DNA from: Diabrotica undecimpunctata
Lineage: Eukaryota; Arthropoda; Insecta; Coleoptera; Chrysomelidae
DNA: 64,000 nt
Assembly (NCBI RefSeq): GCF_040954645.1
Contig: NC_092804.1
Location: forward strand, 151,165,108-151,229,107
Direction of reading: 5' to 3'
The position numbers and the translations under genes are program-made. Below are positions 6,224 through 60,943 of this stretch, piece by piece (positions within the stretch are counted from its first letter, which is position 1; every line of letters starts with the position of its first letter). Under the pieces are notes generated by a model. The model saw only the letters and a list, made by a program, of their open reading frames with translations. It had not been told where the DNA came from and ran no database searches.

Positions 6224-8467
6224 TAGTTTGTTTCACGAAAAATGGTTAAGTGCTTAATGGTTACCTGAGTTGATCCTATTGTGTATACAAGAGTCTCTCA
6301 ATAAACTACCGAAGTACACAGGGTCGCACTTCAGAAAGTTTGTTATTTAATATATTTCATTGGTAGCTGTGTAATACACGATTATAAAAATTTATTAAAT
6401 TATTTCATATGGTATTTTCAGGTTGTTCAAGTGAATATACTTGATAATTGAACAATTTTTAACATGAAGAAAGTAGTTTTTTTGTTCTACGTGAATAATT
6501 GTAGTATATGGACCTAAATTCAGAAAGGTACTTTCCTTTACACTTTTTACATGCTTAGGACTGTCAGCAAAAAACTGGCGTGTTTAAAAGTTTTTGCTCT
6601 TCCTAATCGGATATTGTTAAAAATGTACAGTAATAATAGTTCTATTTACAGTATATACATACAAACGAATACCTAATGTACAAAAAATAGAGGAATTGAA
6701 AAAAACATAGAAAAATATATACAAGTTAATATTTACAAAAAAAATACCCAAAATAACCAAAATATATTTATGAATTCCTAAATACCTAATTCTGTTTTGC
6801 TGTCACTATCCTCTTCAAGTTTAATAACAATTGGTTTAATTATGTAATTCACAGTAACATATGAATTTTCTACGTTCATTACATAGCGTACTGAACTTTT
6901 CCAACTTTCTGGGAAGATATCATCAACACATTTCCTTATTAATTCGACTACACTTTCACTTAAAGTCGGAGAAACATTTTGTGACCTAACATTTGACTTT
7001 AGTTGGTACTACATATGCTCTATATGATTAAATAAACAATAGTAGGGCGGAAGCCGTAACACTGTATGTCCCATGTCCTCGGCCAATGCGTCACAAACAT
7101 ATACTTTTTTAATAGAAAATGATTTTAACACTTCTAACAGTTCATTTTTTTAAATAACTTTCTTCAAAATATATATCGTTTTCTAACAGGTGGTTTTGAA
7201 TGTCAATTTTCGTGTTATTTGCACTTAAAGACTTATGTAATTGACGACTGTGGTAACTTGCATTGTCCATTACCTAATCCTCCGGTTAGGTATAAGACAA
7301 TTCTTAAACCATTGCTCAAAAAGCTCTGCCGTTGTATCCTCATAGTAGTCCACGAAGGAGTCTTTAATGTTCTTTGCAGAAAGCCATAAGGCATTTGGGA
7401 CCCAACCATTTTCTGATCCTGCATGTAAAATTGTTATTCTTTTCCCTGTGTTAAATGGAGCTTTTGTTTGACACCTGTTGGAAGAATCGGACCATCCTTT
7501 GGATGGTGTTTCATGAGTGTCAAACCATGTTTTGTCCAGATAAATTATTGGTCGATCTTCTGTACGGTACTTTCTTATGGAAGTTATATATTCAGTACGC
7601 CACTTTTGTAAACGATAGGACTCCATAAGCACTTGCCTTTTGTCAACTGTACGATATCTGAAGCCCATTTTAGACAAAATCCTCCAAAGACTAATGCGGC
7701 TACAATTTATTTGTGTATCATCATTAGTAAGCCGTTATTTTAAAGCATTTAATGTAGGTATCCGTTGCTCTTCGTACATTATGTACATTTTTCGTCTTAT
7801 TAAGTCCTTATCACTTTCGTCAATACATTTGGTAGAACCGGCATCCTTACGCTTTCTTCTTGACTTAATGGGATTTGATGTAATTCTTTTCACTGTGGTT
7901 AGAGGTATTTTCGTTAAATCAGATATTTCACTGGCAGCAGTATTAGCAATAAGTTCTCTTGTAAGTAAAGAACTATATATTGTTTTTACGATTTCTCTAG
8001 CGTCAGCAGATAAATGCTTTTTCTTTGCTGGAACAATGGAAGAAGCACCATCAATGTTTTTCCACGGACGCCACATAATGCTGTTTTATAGGTATAAATA
8101 GGTATAACACTGGTAACACTTGTAACACTTTCAACTAAATGAAACAAAATGTATATTTAAAAATTTTTCATCGGTTTTATATACTTTTACAAATTATACA
8201 GAATAGAGGGAACCTGTATAATTATTCCAGGAAATACTTAACGATCAACAAATTTATTGTGGTCATTAAAAGGTCAACCATTGATAGTGAAACTCACTGT
8301 TAAAATGTTTACAGCTTTATTATACAAACAAGATAACGACACTCCACAGTAGCTTCAATTTTACCTGAATACTTACCTGCTCAACTAATGTTGACTAAGC
8401 TGGGGTACTTGCGGTCGGGTTTTATTGCAATCATTAAGCACTCAACCATTTTTCGTGAAATAAACTA
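6224..8467 (-). mobile_element. complete Tc1/mariner-superfamily element with 36-bp TIRs
   Basis: The ends match as inverted repeats: 6224-6259 (starting TAGTTTGTTTCACG) and 8432-8467 agree at 34 of 36 positions. Each is flanked by TA (6222-6223 and 8468-8469), the target duplication of this superfamily. The 2244-bp element contains one degenerate transposase gene on the minus strand and about 800 bp of non-coding sequence between that gene and the left TIR. Confidence 0.88.
7015..8076 (-). pseudogene. transposase with unusually long D-E spacing (DD82E-like)
   Basis: The N-terminal part (7735-8076, Met then WRPWKNIDG) is a helix-turn-helix region. A TAA at 7735 interrupts it and the same frame continues to 7270. 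The catalytic residues are IIYLDKTWF (first Asp), VMDNASYHS at 7265 (second Asp, after a frameshift) and PPYYCLFNHIEHM at about 7020 (Glu). Second Asp to Glu is about 81-82 codons, far more than the 34-41 of usual Tc1 or mariner proteins and matching the long-spacer lineage described as DD82E (Sailor). Several stops in the last third make it inactive. Confidence 0.75.
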
Positions 8468-19740: not shown

Positions 19741-20345
19741 ATTAAAAATGAAGGAATTGTTAACCTATGGATAATTATTATAGTCGCTTCTTGGTAGACA
19801 ATTTGACATTGGGCTCACTTGGTCTCGATTTTGTAGCCAATTACCTATGTTTTTAAGTTGAAATTATGAGGTTGGTTTGTAACCTGGGATAGATGTCAAA
19901 TTCTGTTTTTGGTGTGTTTATGTACTTATTTGTAGATAATGTACCTCTGTCCTTCTAATAACCCATTAATATTGGTATATTAATTTATATTGCTGATTTC
20001 TTCGTTCAGTACCTACTGGTAACAGAGCTTGCTATATTCTGCTAATGGGTTCGCTACACATTTTTCTTCCTTAGGTAAAATAAGGGGACTTCTTTGATTG
20101 TTCTATTTTTGCTGCCCGTTTCTTTTATACCTATTGATGTATCTGTTTGTTGCATTCTGTGCTTATTATTCCAGGTACGTTTGCATATCTGGGATATGTC
20201 GAAGTCTCTGTTTTTGATGTATAACTCATGCTCAATTATCCTACCCTTTAGTAGTTATAAGGCTTTTTCCACATATAAATCGATGCATTCAGAAGGCATT
20301 TTATAAATACAGTTCTTTGATCCCTCTTGTGTGTTTTTTATTGGA
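19700..20345 (-). pseudogene. Penelope-like element: GIY-YIG endonuclease end
   Basis: Read leftward from 20340 the frame gives CIYKMPSECIDLYVEKA (a decayed GIY...YIG motif), RIIEHELYIKNRDFDIS (the conserved Arg and Glu-His region), TWNNKHRMQQTDTS and KETGSKNRTIKEV. These are the features of the C-terminal GIY-YIG nuclease of Penelope-like retroelements. A stop lies in the first motif and more follow after 20080. The reverse transcriptase domain is not in the window. This family is known to carry hammerhead motifs in its terminal repeats, which bears on the ribozymes reported here. Confidence 0.65.
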
Positions 20346-20439
20346 TATAATATTGGACAAATCTCAATGTATTGGTTATTTTAATGTTCTTTTAATATTG
20401 AATCTATTTTCTTTAAAATGTTTGTGAATATCTTATTTC

Positions 20440-20765
20440 AATTTTTTTGTGTTTTCTTGATGTAGTTCTTTTTTAGCTGCTTTCGGGTATTCCTCTCTTT
20501 ATTTTCTTGTCTGGTTGGTGTTCAAGTGCTTGTCTGATTATGTTGCTTTTATCTTTTCCCAAAGTGTGGCCAATCCATTCCCTTTTTTTTTTCGTAGACT
20601 GTAGTAGATATATTGGTTTGCTTTTTCTTTCCCAAAGTTTTGTAATATTTTTTATTCTGTTGGGCCAGTGTATTTTTGGACTTTTTATTAACATTTCTTT
20701 ACAAAAGTTTGTGGTTTTTTAGTTGTGGATTCGTGCTGTTCTCATGTTTCTGATCTGCAAAGGTA
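20440..20765 (-). pseudogene. LINE C-terminal tail fragment
   Basis: The ORF at 20473-20694 encodes KREWIGHTLGKDKSNIIRQA then EHQPDKKIKRGIPES, the WIGHTLRK...RQAL signature of the final region of many LINE polyproteins. Upstream codons continue the reading weakly to 20765. No polymerase motifs remain. Confidence 0.62.
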
Positions 20766-20769
20766 GTAT

Positions 20770-21305
20770 ACGTTTGATGCAACTATTAAAGATTTTAATT
20801 TTTAAAAATTAGTAGAAAGAAATTCGAATATCCTTCGTGAATAAGTCTCTAGTACTCCAAAAATTATTAAATAAACAGAGCAGAAATACTTAAGATTTGA
20901 TTTCAATACAGTGCCTCTGCAATCCTCTTATACGTAATTCGATCTTCTTAAAATAATCCCTCCTAAAAGATCTGCTAAAGATCCCACCGCAAAATCACTG
21001 GGTGCATAACGAAGTTAACCGAATTAATATAAATAAGTTAAATTAGTGATATTTAATCACTAATATGTATGTTGTGTATCTGTGAATTGAAATATGAACT
21101 GTCACCACTGGTTTTTAAGGTAATCATAATAAGATGAGTTCTTGCCCGTAGCTGGAAAGTAGGTTTGTAGTGAAGTTTTAGTATAAATTATATTTGGTCA
21201 TGTCTGTTTCTTGAAATAAAAAAAATTGATAAGTAGTAAAACTTTATTCTCTGTTGGTAATTCTAGCATCAAATTTTAACTCACCTACGGTTTAAAGTAA
21301 AAAAG
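20770..21305. other. non-coding, AT-rich
   Basis: No feature was recognised. Confidence 0.35.
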
Positions 21306-21308
21306 CAT

Positions 21309-21464
21309 GTAGGTTGCACTTGCCCCTCAGAAATAATTTGGCGGAAAAGTGTAACCGGTAGCTAGGGGAAAATGTAAACCTGCATGTTATACCCTAGAGG
21401 AAGTAGGTACTGTTTATTTATATTGAATAAGTACTTAATACACAGTATCTACTTTCTCTAAGGT
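21309..21464. repeat. two adjacent hairpin-forming inverted repeats
   Basis: The first hairpin has arms CATGTAGGTT...CCCCT and AGGGG...AACCTGCATG (about 21309-21386). The second has arms at 21391-21413 (ACCCTAGAGGAAGTAGG) and 21441-21463 (CCTAAAG-rich complement) around a loop of about 27 bases. Both stems carry a few mismatches. It could be a small non-autonomous element or a structured transcript; there is no coding. Confidence 0.5.
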
Positions 21465-21589
21465 AAATCATCAGAAACCAATCTTAGGCCGCACAATTTG
21501 TTTCAAATAATTTAGTCATTTTCATACCACCCTTGTGCTTCAAAATGGTTCGCAATATTACGTAAGGAAAGGGTGAAAGCCTTTGTATT

Positions 21590-21962
21590 TAGCTGATACT
21601 TTAAAGGTGTACGTAGAAGAGGTACACTATAGAACAAAAACCTAACAAGATACAAAGAACTCAACAGGGAAATTGAGAAAAAAATAAATGAAGCTAAGGA
21701 AGAGTGGATGAAAGAAAAATGTGAAGAGGTAGAAGATCTGAATATCAATCATAAAGGTAGAGAACTACACAGAAAGGTTAAAGAACTAGCTGGAATATGA
21801 AAACCCAAACACTTATCGATTGTAACAAACCAAATAAAATTGGACCCTGAAAAACTGAAAGAAATATGAAAGCAATATCTTAAAGATTTGTTCGGTGATC
21901 AGAGAACAGAAGATCCGCCACAAATAGATACAGATAAAAAATTAAACATTCTCACCGAATAA
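21590..21962 (+). pseudogene. LINE ORF2 linker fragment
   Basis: The reading NLTRYKELNREIEKKINEAK then EEWMKEKCEEVEDLN and later YLKDLFGDQRTEDPP is the lysine/glutamate-rich linker between endonuclease and reverse transcriptase of LINEs in this window. It ends abruptly at 21962 where an oppositely oriented fragment starts, giving a head-to-head junction. Confidence 0.6.
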
Positions 21963-31759: not shown

Positions 31760-33873
31760 ACAGAATACTCCATCCCAACAAGAAGCGAAACGGAAGGCTT
31801 TTTCGCAATCCAAATTTCTTTGCGCATGTGCGAAATCCGCCATGTTTTAAGTAGTTGTGATGTCTTGTTTGTATATGTATTGAGAAGTATTTGGTGTTTG
31901 TTTTTTAATAGTTACTATAATTAATTTAGTTAGTATTTTAGTGTTAGTTAGTTATTTAGTTAGTTAGTTATTTAGTTAGTTAGTTAATTTAATATATTTG
32001 TGTAAGAAACTTATTGTGATGGCTGCACGAATGGGAGGATTTTATTGTGTTGTTCGTGGGTGCCCATCGAAAACTGGTGAAGGAATTAGTCTCTTTTCAA
32101 TACCGACTGATCGTAGCAGGTAAACAAATTAAATTTTAAATTCAAACATATTACAAATGTTGTCTGAATGTTTATATTTTAGTTAAATACACTTTTTTTT
32201 TAGAGCTGAATTATGGCTGAAAGCGGCCAATAGGTATGATCTGCTTTCCAAGCATGCTGAATGGCATACAAATTATAAAATGTGCGAGAAACATTTTGAA
32301 CCGGTGTACATGTATAAAGGAAACACACGGAAGACATTATTTCAACAAGCACATCCAACGATTTTCTCACACAGCCAATATTCAAAACACACAGACGAAC
32401 CATTAAAGAAAGTCATAAGGCTGGAAGGTAGATACCTTTTATTTATTCACAATTATAGTGCTTTATTATAAAAGTCATATAAAAATCAGTAGTTGTTTTC
32501 ATAATATAAACAAGATCTGAAATTGTGAAATTTAATGATCTTTTATCAGCCTTATTAAGAACATATATCTTATGGTTACATACTGAGTAATATTTATGTC
32601 GTGGTTTTAGGTACAACTGAAATCTATAATGTACAGGAAGTAATTAATAGTCCAACTGATAAACATAATACTATACCTGATACTTTGATGGAAGAGTTTC
32701 TGCTAACAGGTAATTTAATTTATTGCTCCTACAACTTTATTATGCATTCAACTAATCACTAATAAGCATTAACATATCTACTTTGAACGTTTATATGTTA
32801 TTTGGTTATTATATATATTTTTATATTTTAGATGTTAATAGGCAGAAAGTGTCTAGCCCACCTAGGCCCCATACTCCAGAATGTTTCACAGCTGCAACAC
32901 AAACCTCCTCCAAGTTGTCGGGAGGTACACCCAGAAAAAAAAACTAAGATTAAAAATAAAAAATTTGCGTGCAAGTACAAAGAAAGCATATGCGTCTTCC
33001 AAACAGAAGGAAGACAATAAATCTTTAAAAATTTTGTTTCAAATGTGTGACAAATTTTTAAACAAATCCCTAGCACAAATAGTGAAAGCTCAAGCAATTT
33101 TAAAAACTAAATGTCCAAAAAGTAGAAGGTATTCTGATGAATATAAACAATTTGCATTAACACTATATTTTTTGGGCCCTAGAGCCTATGCTTTTATGGA
33201 AAGAATATTGTATTTGCCCTCAAAACGAAGTCTTCAAAAAATTACAGAAAATTTGGTCTGTAAACCTGGTTTGAATAATGACCAAATATTTGATGCCCTA
33301 AAGTTAAAAGTGAACAAAATGTTAGATCAGGACAAGCACTGTAGTATTTGTATTGATGAAATGTCTATTAAAAGTAATTTATTTTTTGATACAGGTCGTG
33401 ATGAGATTGTTGGTCTATATGATATAGGAAATGGGAAAAAGGAATCAATAATTGCACAAAATGTACTTGTGATAATGGTTCGAGGCTTATATTCAAATTG
33501 GAAACAACAACTATCATATTTCTTTGTAAACACTACCTTTGAAGCAAATCACCTTCTTCCTATTATAAAAGAATGTATTTCTAAACTATTTCAATCAGGT
33601 TTATATGTGAATTGTCTTGTTACTGATATGGGATCGAATTTTCTAAAATTGAGTAAATTACTGGGGATTTCTCCAACTAACTCAGAATTTGATGTCAATA
33701 GACATAAAATTATTTATATATTTGATCTATGTCATTTAATTAAAGCCACTAGAAATAACTTAATTAATAATGTTTTTTATTTTGATGACAAAAAAATATC
33801 TTGGTCATTTATAGAAACTTTTTATCATGAAGATAAAAAGCTGTGATTAGAAAGTTGTGATTAGTATTCTGTG
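31760..33873 (+). mobile_element. P element inserted in pogo-like element, 8-bp target duplication
   Basis: CCTGAACC occurs at 31752-31759 and 33874-33881. The ends just inside are inverted: ACAGAATACT at 31760-31769 and AGTATTCTGT at 33863-33872. The flanking pogo-like reading (LKPEP then PEPTSAATAMEF) is continuous when the insert is removed. The element carries a multi-exon THAP-containing transposase gene that stops 27 bp before the right end, so the 3' part of the gene has been deleted. Duplication length is 7 or 8 depending on where one assigns a shared base; 8 is usual for P elements. Confidence 0.8.
32019..33846 (+). pseudogene. P element transposase (THAP domain), four exons, 3'-truncated
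   Basis: The proposed exons are 32019-32119, 32204-32427, 32611-32709 and 32832-33846, all with GT/AG borders and phase-consistent joins. The THAP zinc finger spans exons 1-2: FYCVVRGCPSKTG (two Cys) and YKMCEKHFEP (Cys, His). Exon 4 shows the P transposase core: PKSRRYSDEYKQFALTLYFL, CIDEMSIKSNLFFD (catalytic Asp region), VTDMGSNFLKLSKL and FDLCHLIKATRN. The frame breaks once in an A9 run near 32933-32941. The protein ends at about half the family length, where the element's right end follows directly. Confidence 0.82.
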
Positions 33874-36104: not shown

Positions 36105-36700
36105 TCGAAATGTTTTTAATCCCTCAATCCCCCAATAATATTAAATTTCCTCTGACTCTATCTACTACTTGTTGTAATTCGTTATAAAACGTTTTCCTTA
36201 TTGTTTAAGGCTAGTTATTTTCTGGGCCGTATACTCATATAATGTTCAGGTCTTCCTTCCCCATTTTTATCTTTGCCGTTTCAATCCTTTCTGATATGTA
36301 TTGACACTCTCTGATCTGATTTTGGTACTTTTGGTGTATTAGTAAGGCTACACCTTCCTTGGCACTGTTTTCTTTTGCTAATTTACTGTAGATTGATAAG
36401 TATTTACCTAATTTTGATTTCCTTTTTCTTTTCTGTTTTATTTGTTTTTCTTTCAGCACTTAAATTATTTCTTGGTGTCTTGAGTCGAGCATCCTAATAT
36501 GCCATGTAGTAATTTATTCTCATCTGGGTTTTGGATATTTTTCGCTTGTCCGTTTTTCTTGTTGTAGTTATCTTCATAGTATTAATCCTGTTATAAGACT
36601 GTACATTCTTTATTTAAGCAATATTCATTTTTTACGATTAGTAGGTTGCTAACCTTGTCAATCACTCTCCACATTTTATCCGGTCTTGGGACCGGCTGTA
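36105..36700 (-). pseudogene. LINE endonuclease fragment
   Basis: Read leftward, a WNIRMLDSRHQEI start (about 36505) leads into the ORF at 36235-36459: GKYLSIYSKLAKENSAKEGV, ALLIHQKY, ISERIETAKIKMG, then IYGPENN and a decayed LLGD motif. It is the first half of an EEP-type LINE nuclease. It ends near the Tc1 element, and the rest of the LINE is absent. Confidence 0.62.
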
Positions 36701-36744
36701 GTAACCGCGGACCTACTCAATCCACACCGCAATTACTCCAGGCA

Positions 36745-57354: not shown

Positions 57355-57555
57355 ATGCGTTTTGCGGTTTTTGGCTGTTCCTTTGATTACAAGATCAAGC
57401 GAAATCGTTGCCCTGACACGAGGTTTTTTCGTTTCCCTAAAGAGGAAAATCTAATTAAGCAATGGGTGCATGCCAACGGTAGGAAAGATAAATTTAAGCC
57501 AAAGACGGCTTATATTTGTTCAAAACATTTTACAGAGACAAACTTTTATGTAAAC
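57355..57555 (+). pseudogene. P element THAP domain, first half, interrupted by the ribozyme array
   Basis: From Met at 57355 the reading is MRFAVFGCSFDYKIKRN, CPDTRFFRFPKEENLIKQWV and TAYICSKHFTETNFYVN, a THAP zinc-finger domain. The second Cys and the final Cys and His are present. The first ligand Cys (expected five residues before GC) is Phe, which one base change would explain. The domain continues at 60240 (LKHQLLNYRPKNYRG, stop, KDVVPNKNLP) once the array is removed. Confidence 0.75.
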
Positions 57556-57791
57556 AAAAAGAGAAATCAAACGATTTCTACTTAGCGAAACCGAATTCAA
57601 ATCTTAACCACTGTGTTTCCTAAAATTTGCGAAACAAACAGCTGGATGAATTAATCGGCAAGGGAATCTAAAATTGCATCCCACAAGCCGTTCATCCTAG
57701 TCAAAATTCGTAGTGAATTCAGTTTCTCGTACTTCCAACGAAGTAAATAACAAAACAGAATGACGGTTTTAGATTTTTGTTTTGATAAAGT

Positions 57792-57856
57792 GCAGCAACA
57801 ACCGTTGATACGTATTTCGACCTCCTTAAGTCTCTTCAGAACGGTATAGCCACTGC
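57792..57856 (-). ncRNA. hammerhead ribozyme, array unit 1
   Basis: Same structure as described for 59741-59805, on the minus strand. Predicted cleavage is after C opposite 57807. This is the most diverged unit outside the motif (e.g. AAAACC for TGAACC in the flank), but the core and stems are intact. Confidence 0.82.
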
Positions 57857-58177
57857 TCAAAACCAAAACAAAAATCTTTCCCGTCCTAGACAATAGTTAT
57901 TAAAATAACTATATACAGACGTAACTACGCCATCTAAAAACAAAAAGAGAAATCAAACGATTTCTACTTAGCGAAACCGAATTCAAATCTTAACCACTGT
58001 GTTTCCTAAAATTTGCGAAACAAACAGCTGGATGAATTAATCGGCAAGGGAATCTAAAATTGCATCCCACAAGCCGTTCATCCTAGTCAAAATTCGTAGT
58101 GAATTCAGTTTCTCGTACTTCCAACGAAGTAAATAACAAAACAGAATGACGGTATTAGATTTTTGTTTTGATAAAGT

Positions 58178-58242
58178 GCAGCAACAACCGTTGATACGTA
58201 TTTCGACCTCCTTAAGTCTCTTCAGAACGGTATAGCCACTGC
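58178..58242 (-). ncRNA. hammerhead ribozyme, array unit 2
   Basis: Identical core and stems to unit 59741-59805, inverse orientation, exactly 386 bp from unit 1. Confidence 0.82.
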
Positions 58243-58501
58243 TCTGAACCAAAACAAAAATCTTTCCCGTCCTAGACAATAGTTATTAAAATAACTATAT
58301 ACAGACGTAACTACGCCATCTAAAAACAAAAAGAGAAATCAAACGATTTCTACTTAGCGAAACCGAATTCAAATCTTAACCACTGTGTTTCCTAAAATTT
58401 GCGAAACAAACAGCTGGATGAATTAATCGGCAAGGGAATCTAAAATTGCATCCCACAAGCCGTTCATCCTAGTCAAAATTCGTAGTGAATTCAGTTTCTC
58501 G

Positions 58502-58830
58502 CATGATACTATGACTAACAAGATAGGATCTTCCCGTAGCACAAAATCGGTCGTGTTCGCGCATGCCGTCATTGGAGACCAGAATTTGAATTCTTGTTAA
58601 AGTTAAATGGGATTTTTATGCAGTCTATGATAAAATTATTCAATTAGCAAAATAATAGTAATAAATAAAGGTTTAATAATTACAGTAATCGTACACAAAA
58701 GGATATCTCCAAAGTATTTATTAAAAATTATTTCTTGACACATACAAAAAATTGACATTACGAACGTGCAAGTCTCCAATTACGTCACGACTTATGCGCA
58801 ATATCTTATCTTCTTAATCATAGTATCATG
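58502..58830. mobile_element. 329-bp P-type MITE inserted in array unit 3
   Basis: TIRs of 28 bp (58502-58529, starting CATGATACTATGA, and 58803-58830) differ at three positions. The 8-bp target duplication GTTTCTCG is at 58494-58501 and 58831-58838. An 8-bp duplication and CATGATA-type ends resemble P elements. Non-coding. Its removal restores the array unit exactly, so it is younger than the array. Confidence 0.85.
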
Positions 58831-58900
58831 GTTTCTCGTACTTCCAACGAAGTAAATAACAAAACAGAATGACGGTATTAGATTTTTGTTTTGATAAAGT

Positions 58901-58965
58901 GCAGCAACAACCGTTGATACGTATTTCGACCTCCTTAAGTCTCTTCAGAACGGTATAGCCACTGC
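58901..58965 (-). ncRNA. hammerhead ribozyme, array unit 3
   Basis: Identical motif in the unit that carries the MITE; the MITE lies outside the ribozyme itself but between it and the neighbouring unit's sequence. Confidence 0.8.
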
Positions 58966-59286
58966 TCTGAACCAAAACAAAAATCTTTCCCGTCCTAGAC
59001 AATAGTTATTAAAATAACTATATACAGACGTAACTACGCCATCTAAAAACAAAAAGAGAAATCAAACGATTTCTACTTAGCGAAACCGAATTCAAATCTT
59101 AACCACTGTGTTTCCTAAAATTTGCGAAACAAACAGCTGGATGAATTAATCGGCAAGGGAATCTAAAATTGCATCCCACAAGCCGTTCATCCTAGTCAAA
59201 ATTCGTAGTGAATTCAGTTTCTCGTACTTCCAACGAAGTAAATAACAAAACAGAATGACGGTATTAGATTTTTGTTTTGATAAAGT

Positions 59287-59351
59287 GCAGCAACAACCGT
59301 TGATACGTATTTCGACCTCCTTAAGTCTCTTCAGAACGGTATAGCCACTGC
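59287..59351 (-). ncRNA. hammerhead ribozyme, array unit 4
   Basis: Identical core and stems, inverse orientation, last complete ribozyme left of the inversion point. Confidence 0.82.
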
Positions 59352-59740
59352 TCTGAACCAAAACAAAAATCTTTCCCGTCCTAGACAATAGTTATTAAAA
59401 TAACTATATACAGACGTAACTACGCCATCTAAAAACAAAAAGAGAAATCAAACGATTTCTACTTAGCGAAACCGAATTCAAATCTTAACCACTGTGTTTC
59501 CTAAAATTTGCGAAACAAACAGCTGGATGAATTAATCGGCAAGGGAATCTAAAATTGCATCCCACAAGCCGTTCATCCTAGGATGAACTCGGAAACACAG
59601 TGGTTAAGATTTGAATTCGGTTTCGCTAAGTAGAAATCGTTTGATTTCTCTTTTTGTTTTTAGATGGCGTAGTTACGTCTGTATATAGTTATTTTAATAA
59701 CTATTGTCTAGGACGGGAAAGATTTTTGTTTTGGTTCAGA

Positions 59741-59805
59741 GCAGTGGCTATACCGTTCTGAAGAGACTTAAGGAGGTCGAAATACGTATCAACGGTTGTT
59801 GCTGC
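59741..59805 (+). ncRNA. hammerhead ribozyme, array unit 5 (reference copy)
   Basis: Stem I: ACCGTT (59752-59757) with AACGGT (59791-59796), then an internal loop (TGGCTAT opposite TGTTG) and GCAG (59741-59744) with CTGC (59802-59805). Core CTGAAGA is at 59758-59764. Stem II is GACTT/AGGTC (59765-59769 with 59774-59778), loop AAGG. GAAA is at 59779-59782. Stem III is the loopless palindrome ATACGTAT. The cleavage site follows C59790. All conserved core positions match the hammerhead consensus, and the stem I internal loop is where natural hammerheads make their activating tertiary contacts. Confidence 0.87.
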
Positions 59806-60126
59806 ACTTTATCAAAACAAAAATCTAATACCGTCATTCTGTTTTGTTATTTACTTCGTTGGAAGTACGAGAAACTGAATTCACTACGAATTTTGACTAG
59901 GATGAACGGCTTGTGGGATGCAATTTTAGATTCCCTTGCCGATTAATTCATCCAGCTGTTTGTTTCGCAAATTTTAGGAAACACAGTGGTTAAGATTTGA
60001 ATTCGGTTTCGCTAAGTAGAAATCGTTTGATTTCTCTTTTTGTTTTTAGATGGCGTAGTTACGTCTGTATATAGTTATTTTAATAACTATTGTCTAGGAC
60101 GGGAAAGATTTTTGTTTTGGTTCAGA

Positions 60127-60191
60127 GCAGTGGCTATACCGTTCTGAAGAGACTTAAGGAGGTCGAAATACGTATCAACGGTTGTTGCTGC
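60127..60191 (+). ncRNA. hammerhead ribozyme, array unit 6
   Basis: Identical motif, 386 bp after unit 5. The array ends 36 bp downstream at the target duplication. Confidence 0.82.
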
Positions 60192-60239
60192 ACTTTATCA
60201 AAACAAAAATCTAATACCGTCATTCTGTTTTATGTAAAC

Positions 60240-60943
60240 CTTAAGCATCAACTGCTGAATTATCGGCCGAAAAATTATCGGGGTTTGTAAAAAGATGTTG
60301 TTCCCAACAAGAATTTGCCTATGATGAAACCTGAGGTCTGTTGGAGTATAAGCGCAAAATAAATTTTGCAAAGAATGTCTGACATGATTTCAACAATGCG
60401 AGTTAAAGGCAAGAAATCATGGGTTTCGTTCCAAAAAGGTAACACAATATATCAAAGTAAAAACACATTTATAACATTTTCCAAAACATTGTAGGTATTC
60501 TTATATCAAATAAGGCTTTGCAGTTGCTTCTTGAAGATGTAGACAAACGATATAATATATACTACATTTTGACAAGGCGCTTAAACCAAGATCCCTTGGA
60601 AAATTTTTTTGGGGTCATAAGAGCGAAAGGTGGTTTAAACGATCATCCAACTTCTTTAGATTTTAAATACCGACTCCGTTCTTATTTAAGAGGAAAAAAC
60701 GAAGGTGTCTTTTTAAATTACTGTAATGTAGAAGACGATAGTACTCCTACATTAACTATTGGCAGTAGTATGGTAGAAAAGCTTGCTTCAAAAAAAAAAA
60801 CAATCATTGACCCCAATTTTACGGATGAAGATGACATAGTCCTCTGTAAAGAAGTCGATGATTTAGGATATGATGGACTAGGACATTTAGGAGGATTTAT
60901 TTGTAGCAAGTTTAAACGCAAGTTACCAAATTTAAGCAAGTGA
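60240..60943 (+). pseudogene. P element transposase, end of THAP and C-terminal exon
   Basis: This resumes the gene cut at 57555. After LKHQLLNYRPKNYRG and a stop, the reading shows KDVVPNKNLP, then MISTMRVKGKKSWVSFQKG. A plausible intron (GT at about 60440, AG at 60494) follows. The conserved P transposase block is then NIYYILTRRLNQDPLENFFG, RAKGGLNDHPTSLDFKYRLR and LGYDGLGHLGGFICSKF. The middle of the transposase, including most catalytic motifs, is absent, so this is an internally deleted copy. An open 141-codon stretch (60518-60943) is undamaged. Confidence 0.8.

Follow-up and report, generated by a model that had tools for sequence, protein, structure and literature searches.

Metazoan non-LTR retrozymes are the closest described counterparts of the element considered here. 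As set out in the available portion of PMC7229834, they consist of tandem, non-coding units of 170-400 nt with a low G+C content, a type I hammerhead ribozyme and strong self-pairing; target-site duplications, when present, exceed 4 bp, Penelope-like elements co-occur with them, and insects are already included among their hosts in general terms. All of these features recur in the present element. Both the enzyme that moves retrozymes and the use of an RNA circle as the template figure only as proposals in the discussion of that source (PMC7229834). Plant LTR retrozymes likewise carry hammerhead repeats and are thought to move via RNA circles, but differ in possessing type III hammerheads, LTRs and 4-bp duplications (PMC7229834, available portion). 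The Dolichopoda pDo500 repeat is a further insect sequence with a hammerhead-like structure; it is described as a satellite family, and a comparable insertion structure is not mentioned in the available portion of its description (PMC2808323).

Penelope-like elements offer a second point of comparison. Penelope inverted repeats lie head to head with palindromes and 8-10-bp duplications, and fold-back self-priming has been proposed to account for them (PMC3846280, available portion). In purified form, a Penelope-like protein cleaves and extends both strands of its target, initiates internally at two sites and favours AT-rich DNA; insertion in vitro did not need hammerhead cutting, and unprocessed RNA served as the principal substrate (PMC11167929). 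The element described below shares with this class head-to-head inversion, junction palindromes and target duplications (PMC3846280, PMC11167929), as well as AT-rich targets and two internal start sites for reverse transcription (PMC11167929). The shared inversion and target duplication concern a way of insertion and not membership: the unit differs from Penelope-like elements in having neither a reverse transcriptase nor a GIY-YIG frame (no frame exceeds 81 codons), and its putative start sites are ~200 nt apart, one per arm.

In the open-licence literature searched we found nothing that ties retrozymes to twin priming or to head-to-head order; in a retrozyme paper that mentions an inverted repeat, the available portion concerns back-splicing and viroids. 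Two-armed insertions with paired fixed ends are not mentioned in the available portion of PMC7229834, and the insertions reported here differ from the metazoan retrozymes described there in being two-armed, head to head and bounded by two fixed ends; the circle is here a predicted one. In this study, we analysed an array of hammerhead-bearing 386-bp units in a window of 64 kb, the whole stretch of DNA under analysis, together with related arrays elsewhere in the same genome. A preliminary description of the window had proposed a recent tandem array of an insect retrozyme. The arrangement of the arms, their end points and their variants are compared across 32 arrays, and a mechanism is suggested in which insertion proceeds from the two ends of a cut in the target.

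Anatomy of the window array

The array is flanked by an exact 12-bp target-site duplication, TTTTATGTAAAC, at 57544-57555 (left copy) and 60228-60239 (right copy). The preliminary description had reported this repeat, and 12 matching bases were obtained in none of 100,000 random placements at equal spacing. Between the two copies lie a minus arm (57552-59581), in which the ribozyme sense is on the minus strand, and a plus arm (59591-60231, plus strand). The minus arm runs from unit position 255 at its outer end (site B, defined below) to unit position 107 at its inner end, and the plus arm from unit position 187 at its inner end to unit position 55 at its outer end (site A). In ribozyme sense the 3' ends are outermost in both arms, so that the arms face each other head to head, and they are inverted with full complementarity over up to 641 bp. 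The junction (59571-59590), which joins unit position 107 to 187, consists of the 18-bp palindrome GTTCATCCTAGGATGAAC (59571-59588) followed by TC.

The unit is 386 bp in length with a G+C content of 36%, and the longest stop-to-stop frame of the endlessly read unit on either strand is 81 codons, which amounts to a low coding capacity. The units were also correctly described as near-identical: only three differences were found over 2,342 bases compared, all three in the leftmost stretch. The minus arm is interrupted by an inserted element of 329 bp (58502-58830) with 31-bp inverted ends (87%), which is flanked by an 8-bp duplication, GTTTCTCG, at 58494-58501 and 58831-58838. This element presumably resembles P elements; a second full copy was not found within the 64-kb window. 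The earlier picture of a tandem array therefore stands for the units but not for a single head-to-tail run, since two arms lie head to head and the minus arm is interrupted; it had omitted the inversion, the inserted element and the transposase-like host gene.

The insertion cuts a THAP-domain coding stretch (57355-57555, plus strand; PF05485, 48.1 bits). Past it lies a frame (60461-60943, plus strand) in which a P-transposase-like C-terminal RNase H piece is recognized (PF21789, 39.4 bits). When the target site is joined, the frame is open for 16 codons across it. Joining the flanks changes the THAP score barely, from 48.1 to 49.9 bits, and a search for a homologue of the joined-flank target sequence found none, so the open frame lends weak support to the joined reading. 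Among the best 120 of 1,314 matches, Leptinotarsa decemlineata provides the nearest named relative of a window transposase (86% identity), and the top named relatives come from beetles. The host is thus probably a beetle, in keeping with the insect origin that had been proposed. A P-transposase-like frame with RNase H N-terminal and P-element HTH domains is also present at 32866-33846 (plus strand).

Hammerhead ribozymes

Full hammerhead cores (CTGAAGA, stem II, GAAA, stem III, C) are present six times in the window array, which bears out the claim of six hammerheads in 386-bp units. Four are on the minus strand (57801-57845, 58187-58231, 58910-58954 and 59296-59340) and two on the plus strand (59752-59796 and 60138-60182), and for the latter two the known hammerhead core predicts cuts after C59790 and C60176, respectively. 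The covariance-model check for type I hammerheads suggested in the preliminary description was carried out on a 2.8-kb stretch, where each of the six was matched by Rfam Hammerhead_1 (RF00163) with 30.8 bits (E = 5.5e-5), slightly short of the gathering score of 34. The six were not listed by whole-window Rfam runs at the gathering score or at E<=1, in the latter case presumably because filters are stricter on longer sequence. Twister-P1 (RF03160) matches are also observed in the window, one at 6531-6590 (minus strand; 42.1 bits, gathering score 67.2; E = 6.8e-6 for the window and 5.3e-8 for 501 bases) and a weaker one at 36659-36719 (minus strand; 25.1 bits, E = 0.52).

An inner stem I of 6 bp, CUGAAGA, a stem II of 5 bp (loop AAGG) and GAAA are present in the centroid fold of 59700-59840, in which the stem III segment is open. 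Stem III (AUACGUAU) is self-complementary and weak within a single copy, and co-folding of two cores gives a double hammerhead at -23.1 kcal/mol versus -7.0 for one core. Salamander hammerheads with a weak stem III act as dimers, according to the available portion of PMC7229834. Of the 227 places found across the 32 arrays with up to six substitutions allowed, 210 have an exact core. Searches with a 33-base hammerhead string in genome_contigs, with a slightly looser string in viral_contigs and with the 386-bp unit among phages gave no match.

Copies across the genome: orientation and end points

The genome-wide search for the unit, also proposed in the preliminary description, returned at least 349 matches in the 1.74-Gb assembly of 2,867 contigs. 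The arrays compared here (n = 32) are all clusters among the matches listed and occupy 31 regions on 11 contigs, the window's included; the genome contains further unit matches beyond them. Segments below 90% identity were dropped, which removed one row, in L043 (67.8%). Two arms are present in 28 of the 32 arrays, in each case a minus arm followed by a plus arm and hence head to head, while four arrays have one arm only (three minus, one plus).

The outer ends cluster at unit positions 49-55 (site A, between ATTCTG and TTTT) and 251-260 (site B, between TTTTTG and TTTTT). One A end and one B end are combined in 26 of the 32 arrays, and A/A or B/B combinations do not occur (26/26 against even chance, p 3e-8); B is on the left and A on the right in 15 arrays, and the reverse holds in 11. 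The exceptions are two two-armed arrays, L025 (ends at 206 and A) and L044 (40 and B), and four one-armed arrays, L038 and L049 with A only and L039 and L043 with B only. This pairing bears on the possibility of self-priming, in which the inverted arm would arise when a target-primed cDNA folds back to serve as its own template, as might be suspected from the head-to-head order of the arms and the palindrome of 18 bp at the window junction. Self-priming would end the second arm at the start of the first, whereas the ends are A plus B in these 26 arrays and never alike, and we regard it as very unlikely.

Arms starting at A are not significantly longer or shorter than those starting at B (p 0.46), the two arm lengths of an array are uncorrelated (rho 0.18, p 0.38) and the pooled inner ends depart mildly from uniformity (p 0.015). 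No two of the 28 two-armed arrays share a junction pair. The long, fully complementary inverted arms of the window copy (up to 641 bp) and their flanking duplication might suggest a fold-back DNA transposon, in which a transposase mobilizes the inverted arms; yet the two outer ends differ in sequence, so that common terminal inverted repeats are lacking, and 28 differing junctions out of 28 mean that the copies are not derived from one another. We find such an origin barely conceivable. In L030 the junction holds 216 nt of unrelated A-rich sequence (L030:3107-3322), which perhaps reflects a template jump onto another RNA.

Target sites and the predicted RNA circle

Target-site duplications were scorable in 27 of the 32 arrays; four arrays in (AT)n were excluded, as was L039, for which no duplication was obtained. 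Expressed as maximal lengths with overlap with the unit counted in, the duplications are 13 bp in 13 arrays, 12 bp in six, 14 bp in two, 16 bp in one, 10 bp in two and 6 bp in three, so that 21 of the 27 fall at 12-14 bp. Where the duplication is at least 10 bp (n = 24), the overlap with the unit ranges from 0 to 5 on the left and from -4 to 6 on the right. Over the 15 bases to the left of each array the A+T content is 82%, versus 65% further out, with the (AT)n sites counted. In the window copy, base pairing between the final four bases of the target and the template is possible on both sides (AAAC/GUUU and AAAA/UUUU); the pairing words GUUU and UUUU occur seven and 12 times, respectively, in the 386 unit positions.

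Folded as a circle, the unit has a predicted energy of -116.8 kcal/mol (z -7.5; none of 100 shuffles as low), and the opposite strand -88.6 kcal/mol. Sites A and B are single-stranded parts of one multiloop of this predicted circle, which is closed by the pair 45-308 and sits at the distal end of the long stem I. Their mean predicted unpaired probabilities are 0.89 (A) and 0.68 (B), and 5% (A) and 10% (B) of 8-nt windows in the predicted circle are equally or more open.

The size of the unit, its type I hammerhead, 36% G+C content and self-pairing, the duplications exceeding 4 bp and the dispersal of multi-unit insertions together support assignment of the element to a known kind, the metazoan non-LTR retrozymes. 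The retrozyme identity put forward in the preliminary description is thus supported by the fit to the features given in the available portion of PMC7229834.

Sequence homogeneity, template and age

Six unit positions, namely 79, 112, 127, 153, 225 and 302, are polymorphic between arrays. Within arrays only one of 190 array-site cells is mixed, owing to a base peculiar to a single unit of L030, and the majority allele is identical in both arms in all 138 comparisons. The number of arm mismatches is therefore 0, versus a mean of 31.9 and a minimum of 17 in 2,000 shuffles of the arms among the 28 arrays. Differences amount to 0.29% within arrays, 0.32% between the two arms of an array and 0.68% from array to array, which agrees with the recent origin claimed for the window array. 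The remaining variants are nearly all single-copy, with the exception of seven sites (four in L022 and one each in L030, L033 and L051).

Array-wide haplotypes bear on the nature of the template. Two-ended priming could take place on a linear multimeric transcript instead of a circle, and unprocessed RNA is indeed the main substrate in the purified Penelope-like system (PMC11167929). Such a template predicts unit-specific variants in both arms at the matching unit, counted from the outer ends. An identical 60-nt deletion (unit 240-299) is found in L029 (L029:1970 and L029:2620), in one unit per arm with the other units intact, and is placed where a common linear template would put it; it suggests either a multimeric template or a later conversion between arms. 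Against a linear template, none of the 58 testable unit-specific variants in 28 arrays is common to both arms at the matching unit, L029 being only partly covered in this test (63% and 72% of its arms), and the haplotypes are array-wide, with the single mixed cell noted above. When offsets of -4 to 4 units were considered, one match was obtained, an L022 variant at unit 317 that the two arms have in common one unit out of step. The lack of variants common to both arms at the matching unit favours a monomeric template, most simply a circle, and a linear transcript appears unlikely to us.

Variants also recur within one arm, with periods of four, two, six and three units in L022, L030, L033 and L051, respectively, and some arrays were thus probably extended after insertion via local duplication. 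Gene conversion inside arrays may be an alternative route to homogeneity. Later local duplication of this kind, like the tandem units and the low divergence within arrays, is what ordinary satellite DNA would exhibit under unequal exchange and gene conversion without retrotransposition. Satellite DNA does not match 32 sites on 11 contigs with fixed ends, constant duplications and head-to-head order, nor alleles that vary from array to array but not from arm to arm, and we consider it extremely unlikely as the whole explanation. Insertion from a monomeric, probably circular template remains our preferred reading.

A diverged relative of the unit lies around a hammerhead at 20837-20951 (minus strand), in which the core is broken by a change of GAAA to GAAT. 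Its local score of 79 compares with at most 42.5 in the other window chunks tested; a permissive long alignment of the unit with 20200-21600 was not above background, and this region is not significantly structured (z -1.63, six of 100 shuffles as low). Diverged retrozyme-like sequences with 82% identity over 50 bp are also observed at L052:559-608 and L053:607-656 (both minus strand), ~0.9 kb from a GIY-YIG match. These relatives, together with the 67.8% segment in L043, indicate that the family predates the near-identical arrays.

Penelope-like elements as a possible enzyme source

GIY-YIG domains are plentiful in the genome, with at least 73 matches over the cut-off when 150 of 6,687 candidates were scored; none was found in 20 translated stretches of the window. 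One frame combines RVT_1 and GIY-YIG matches in L058 (29.0 bits, cut-off 29.6, and 27.6 bits, cut-off 22.6) and likewise in L059 (34.8 bits, cut-off 29.6, and 27.3 bits, cut-off 22.6). L058 possesses inverted arms of 370 nt that are 99% complementary and arranged head to head, with both outer ends 3' to the frame and in AT repeats; its arms end at a single site and not at two. L059 stops 28 nt before the L058 end, likewise at AT repeats, an offset that recalls the optional tail of Penelope-like elements (PMC11167929). A target duplication could not be read in L058 or L059. Comparison of the unit with L054, L056, L058 and L059 gave a best E of 0.08 and no convincing common sequence, which, with the single end site of L058, makes the link between the unit and Penelope-like elements one of architecture only. 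Eight GIY-YIG loci searched with Rfam at E<=1 yielded no hammerhead. Candidate CTGANGA...GAAA strings are seen by plain pattern in L054, L056, L058 and L059, and CTGAAGA...GAAA occurs in Penelope-like end repeats at L058:1195 (minus strand), L058:3638 (plus strand) and L059:3577 (plus strand), without an Rfam match at E<=1.

Proposed mechanism

As read from the assembly, the arrays have a common anatomy, with two fixed ends, one of each per array, head-to-head order, target duplications, a new junction in each copy and one haplotype per array. We propose that the retrozyme inserts by two-ended target priming at sites A and B with rolling on one RNA circle, and assign this reading a probability of roughly 0.7. 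In the proposed cycle, the tandem units would be transcribed and the hammerheads, probably best in pairs, would cleave the transcript into 386-nt monomers, each of which would be closed into a circle. An endonuclease/reverse transcriptase would then make a staggered cut of ~12-13 nt in AT-rich DNA, and the two free 3' ends would prime on one RNA, at site A (~G51-UUUU) and at site B (~G252-UUUU). The two cDNAs would roll several rounds and subsequently be joined head to head at their stopping points. The enzyme would most likely be supplied by a Penelope-like element. Transcription, cleavage, circularity of the template and this enzyme source are elements of the cycle that we infer.

In the twin priming of LINEs, both ends of the target cut prime on one RNA and give rise to an inverted part, with one start at the 3' tail. 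The unit differs from this scheme in that its two starts are fixed and internal and the template would be read round several times.

Several observations count against the proposed cycle, including the hammerhead scores below the Rfam gathering score, the weak stem III, the L029 deletion, the L022 variant at unit 317, the periodic variants, the odd or one-armed arrays and the dispensability of hammerhead cutting for insertion in vitro (PMC11167929). The single end site of L058 and the lack of convincing common sequence count against the Penelope link. A more specific and general form of the model, which we advance tentatively and hold at somewhat below even odds, is that a dimeric Penelope-like enzyme might cut both strands and seat each 3' end on its own multiloop start site (A or B), with two rolling cDNAs on one circular RNA being joined head to head, and that animal retrozymes might insert in this way generally.

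Paired start sites, array-wide haplotypes and duplications of nearly constant length make the mechanism testable, and the two-ended array structure provides a genome-only signature that can be sought in other animals. If the proposal is true, the arrays would be direct records of two-ended rolling-circle target priming, and would represent a natural means by which a small RNA circle is written, in multimeric form, into the two sides of a DNA break.
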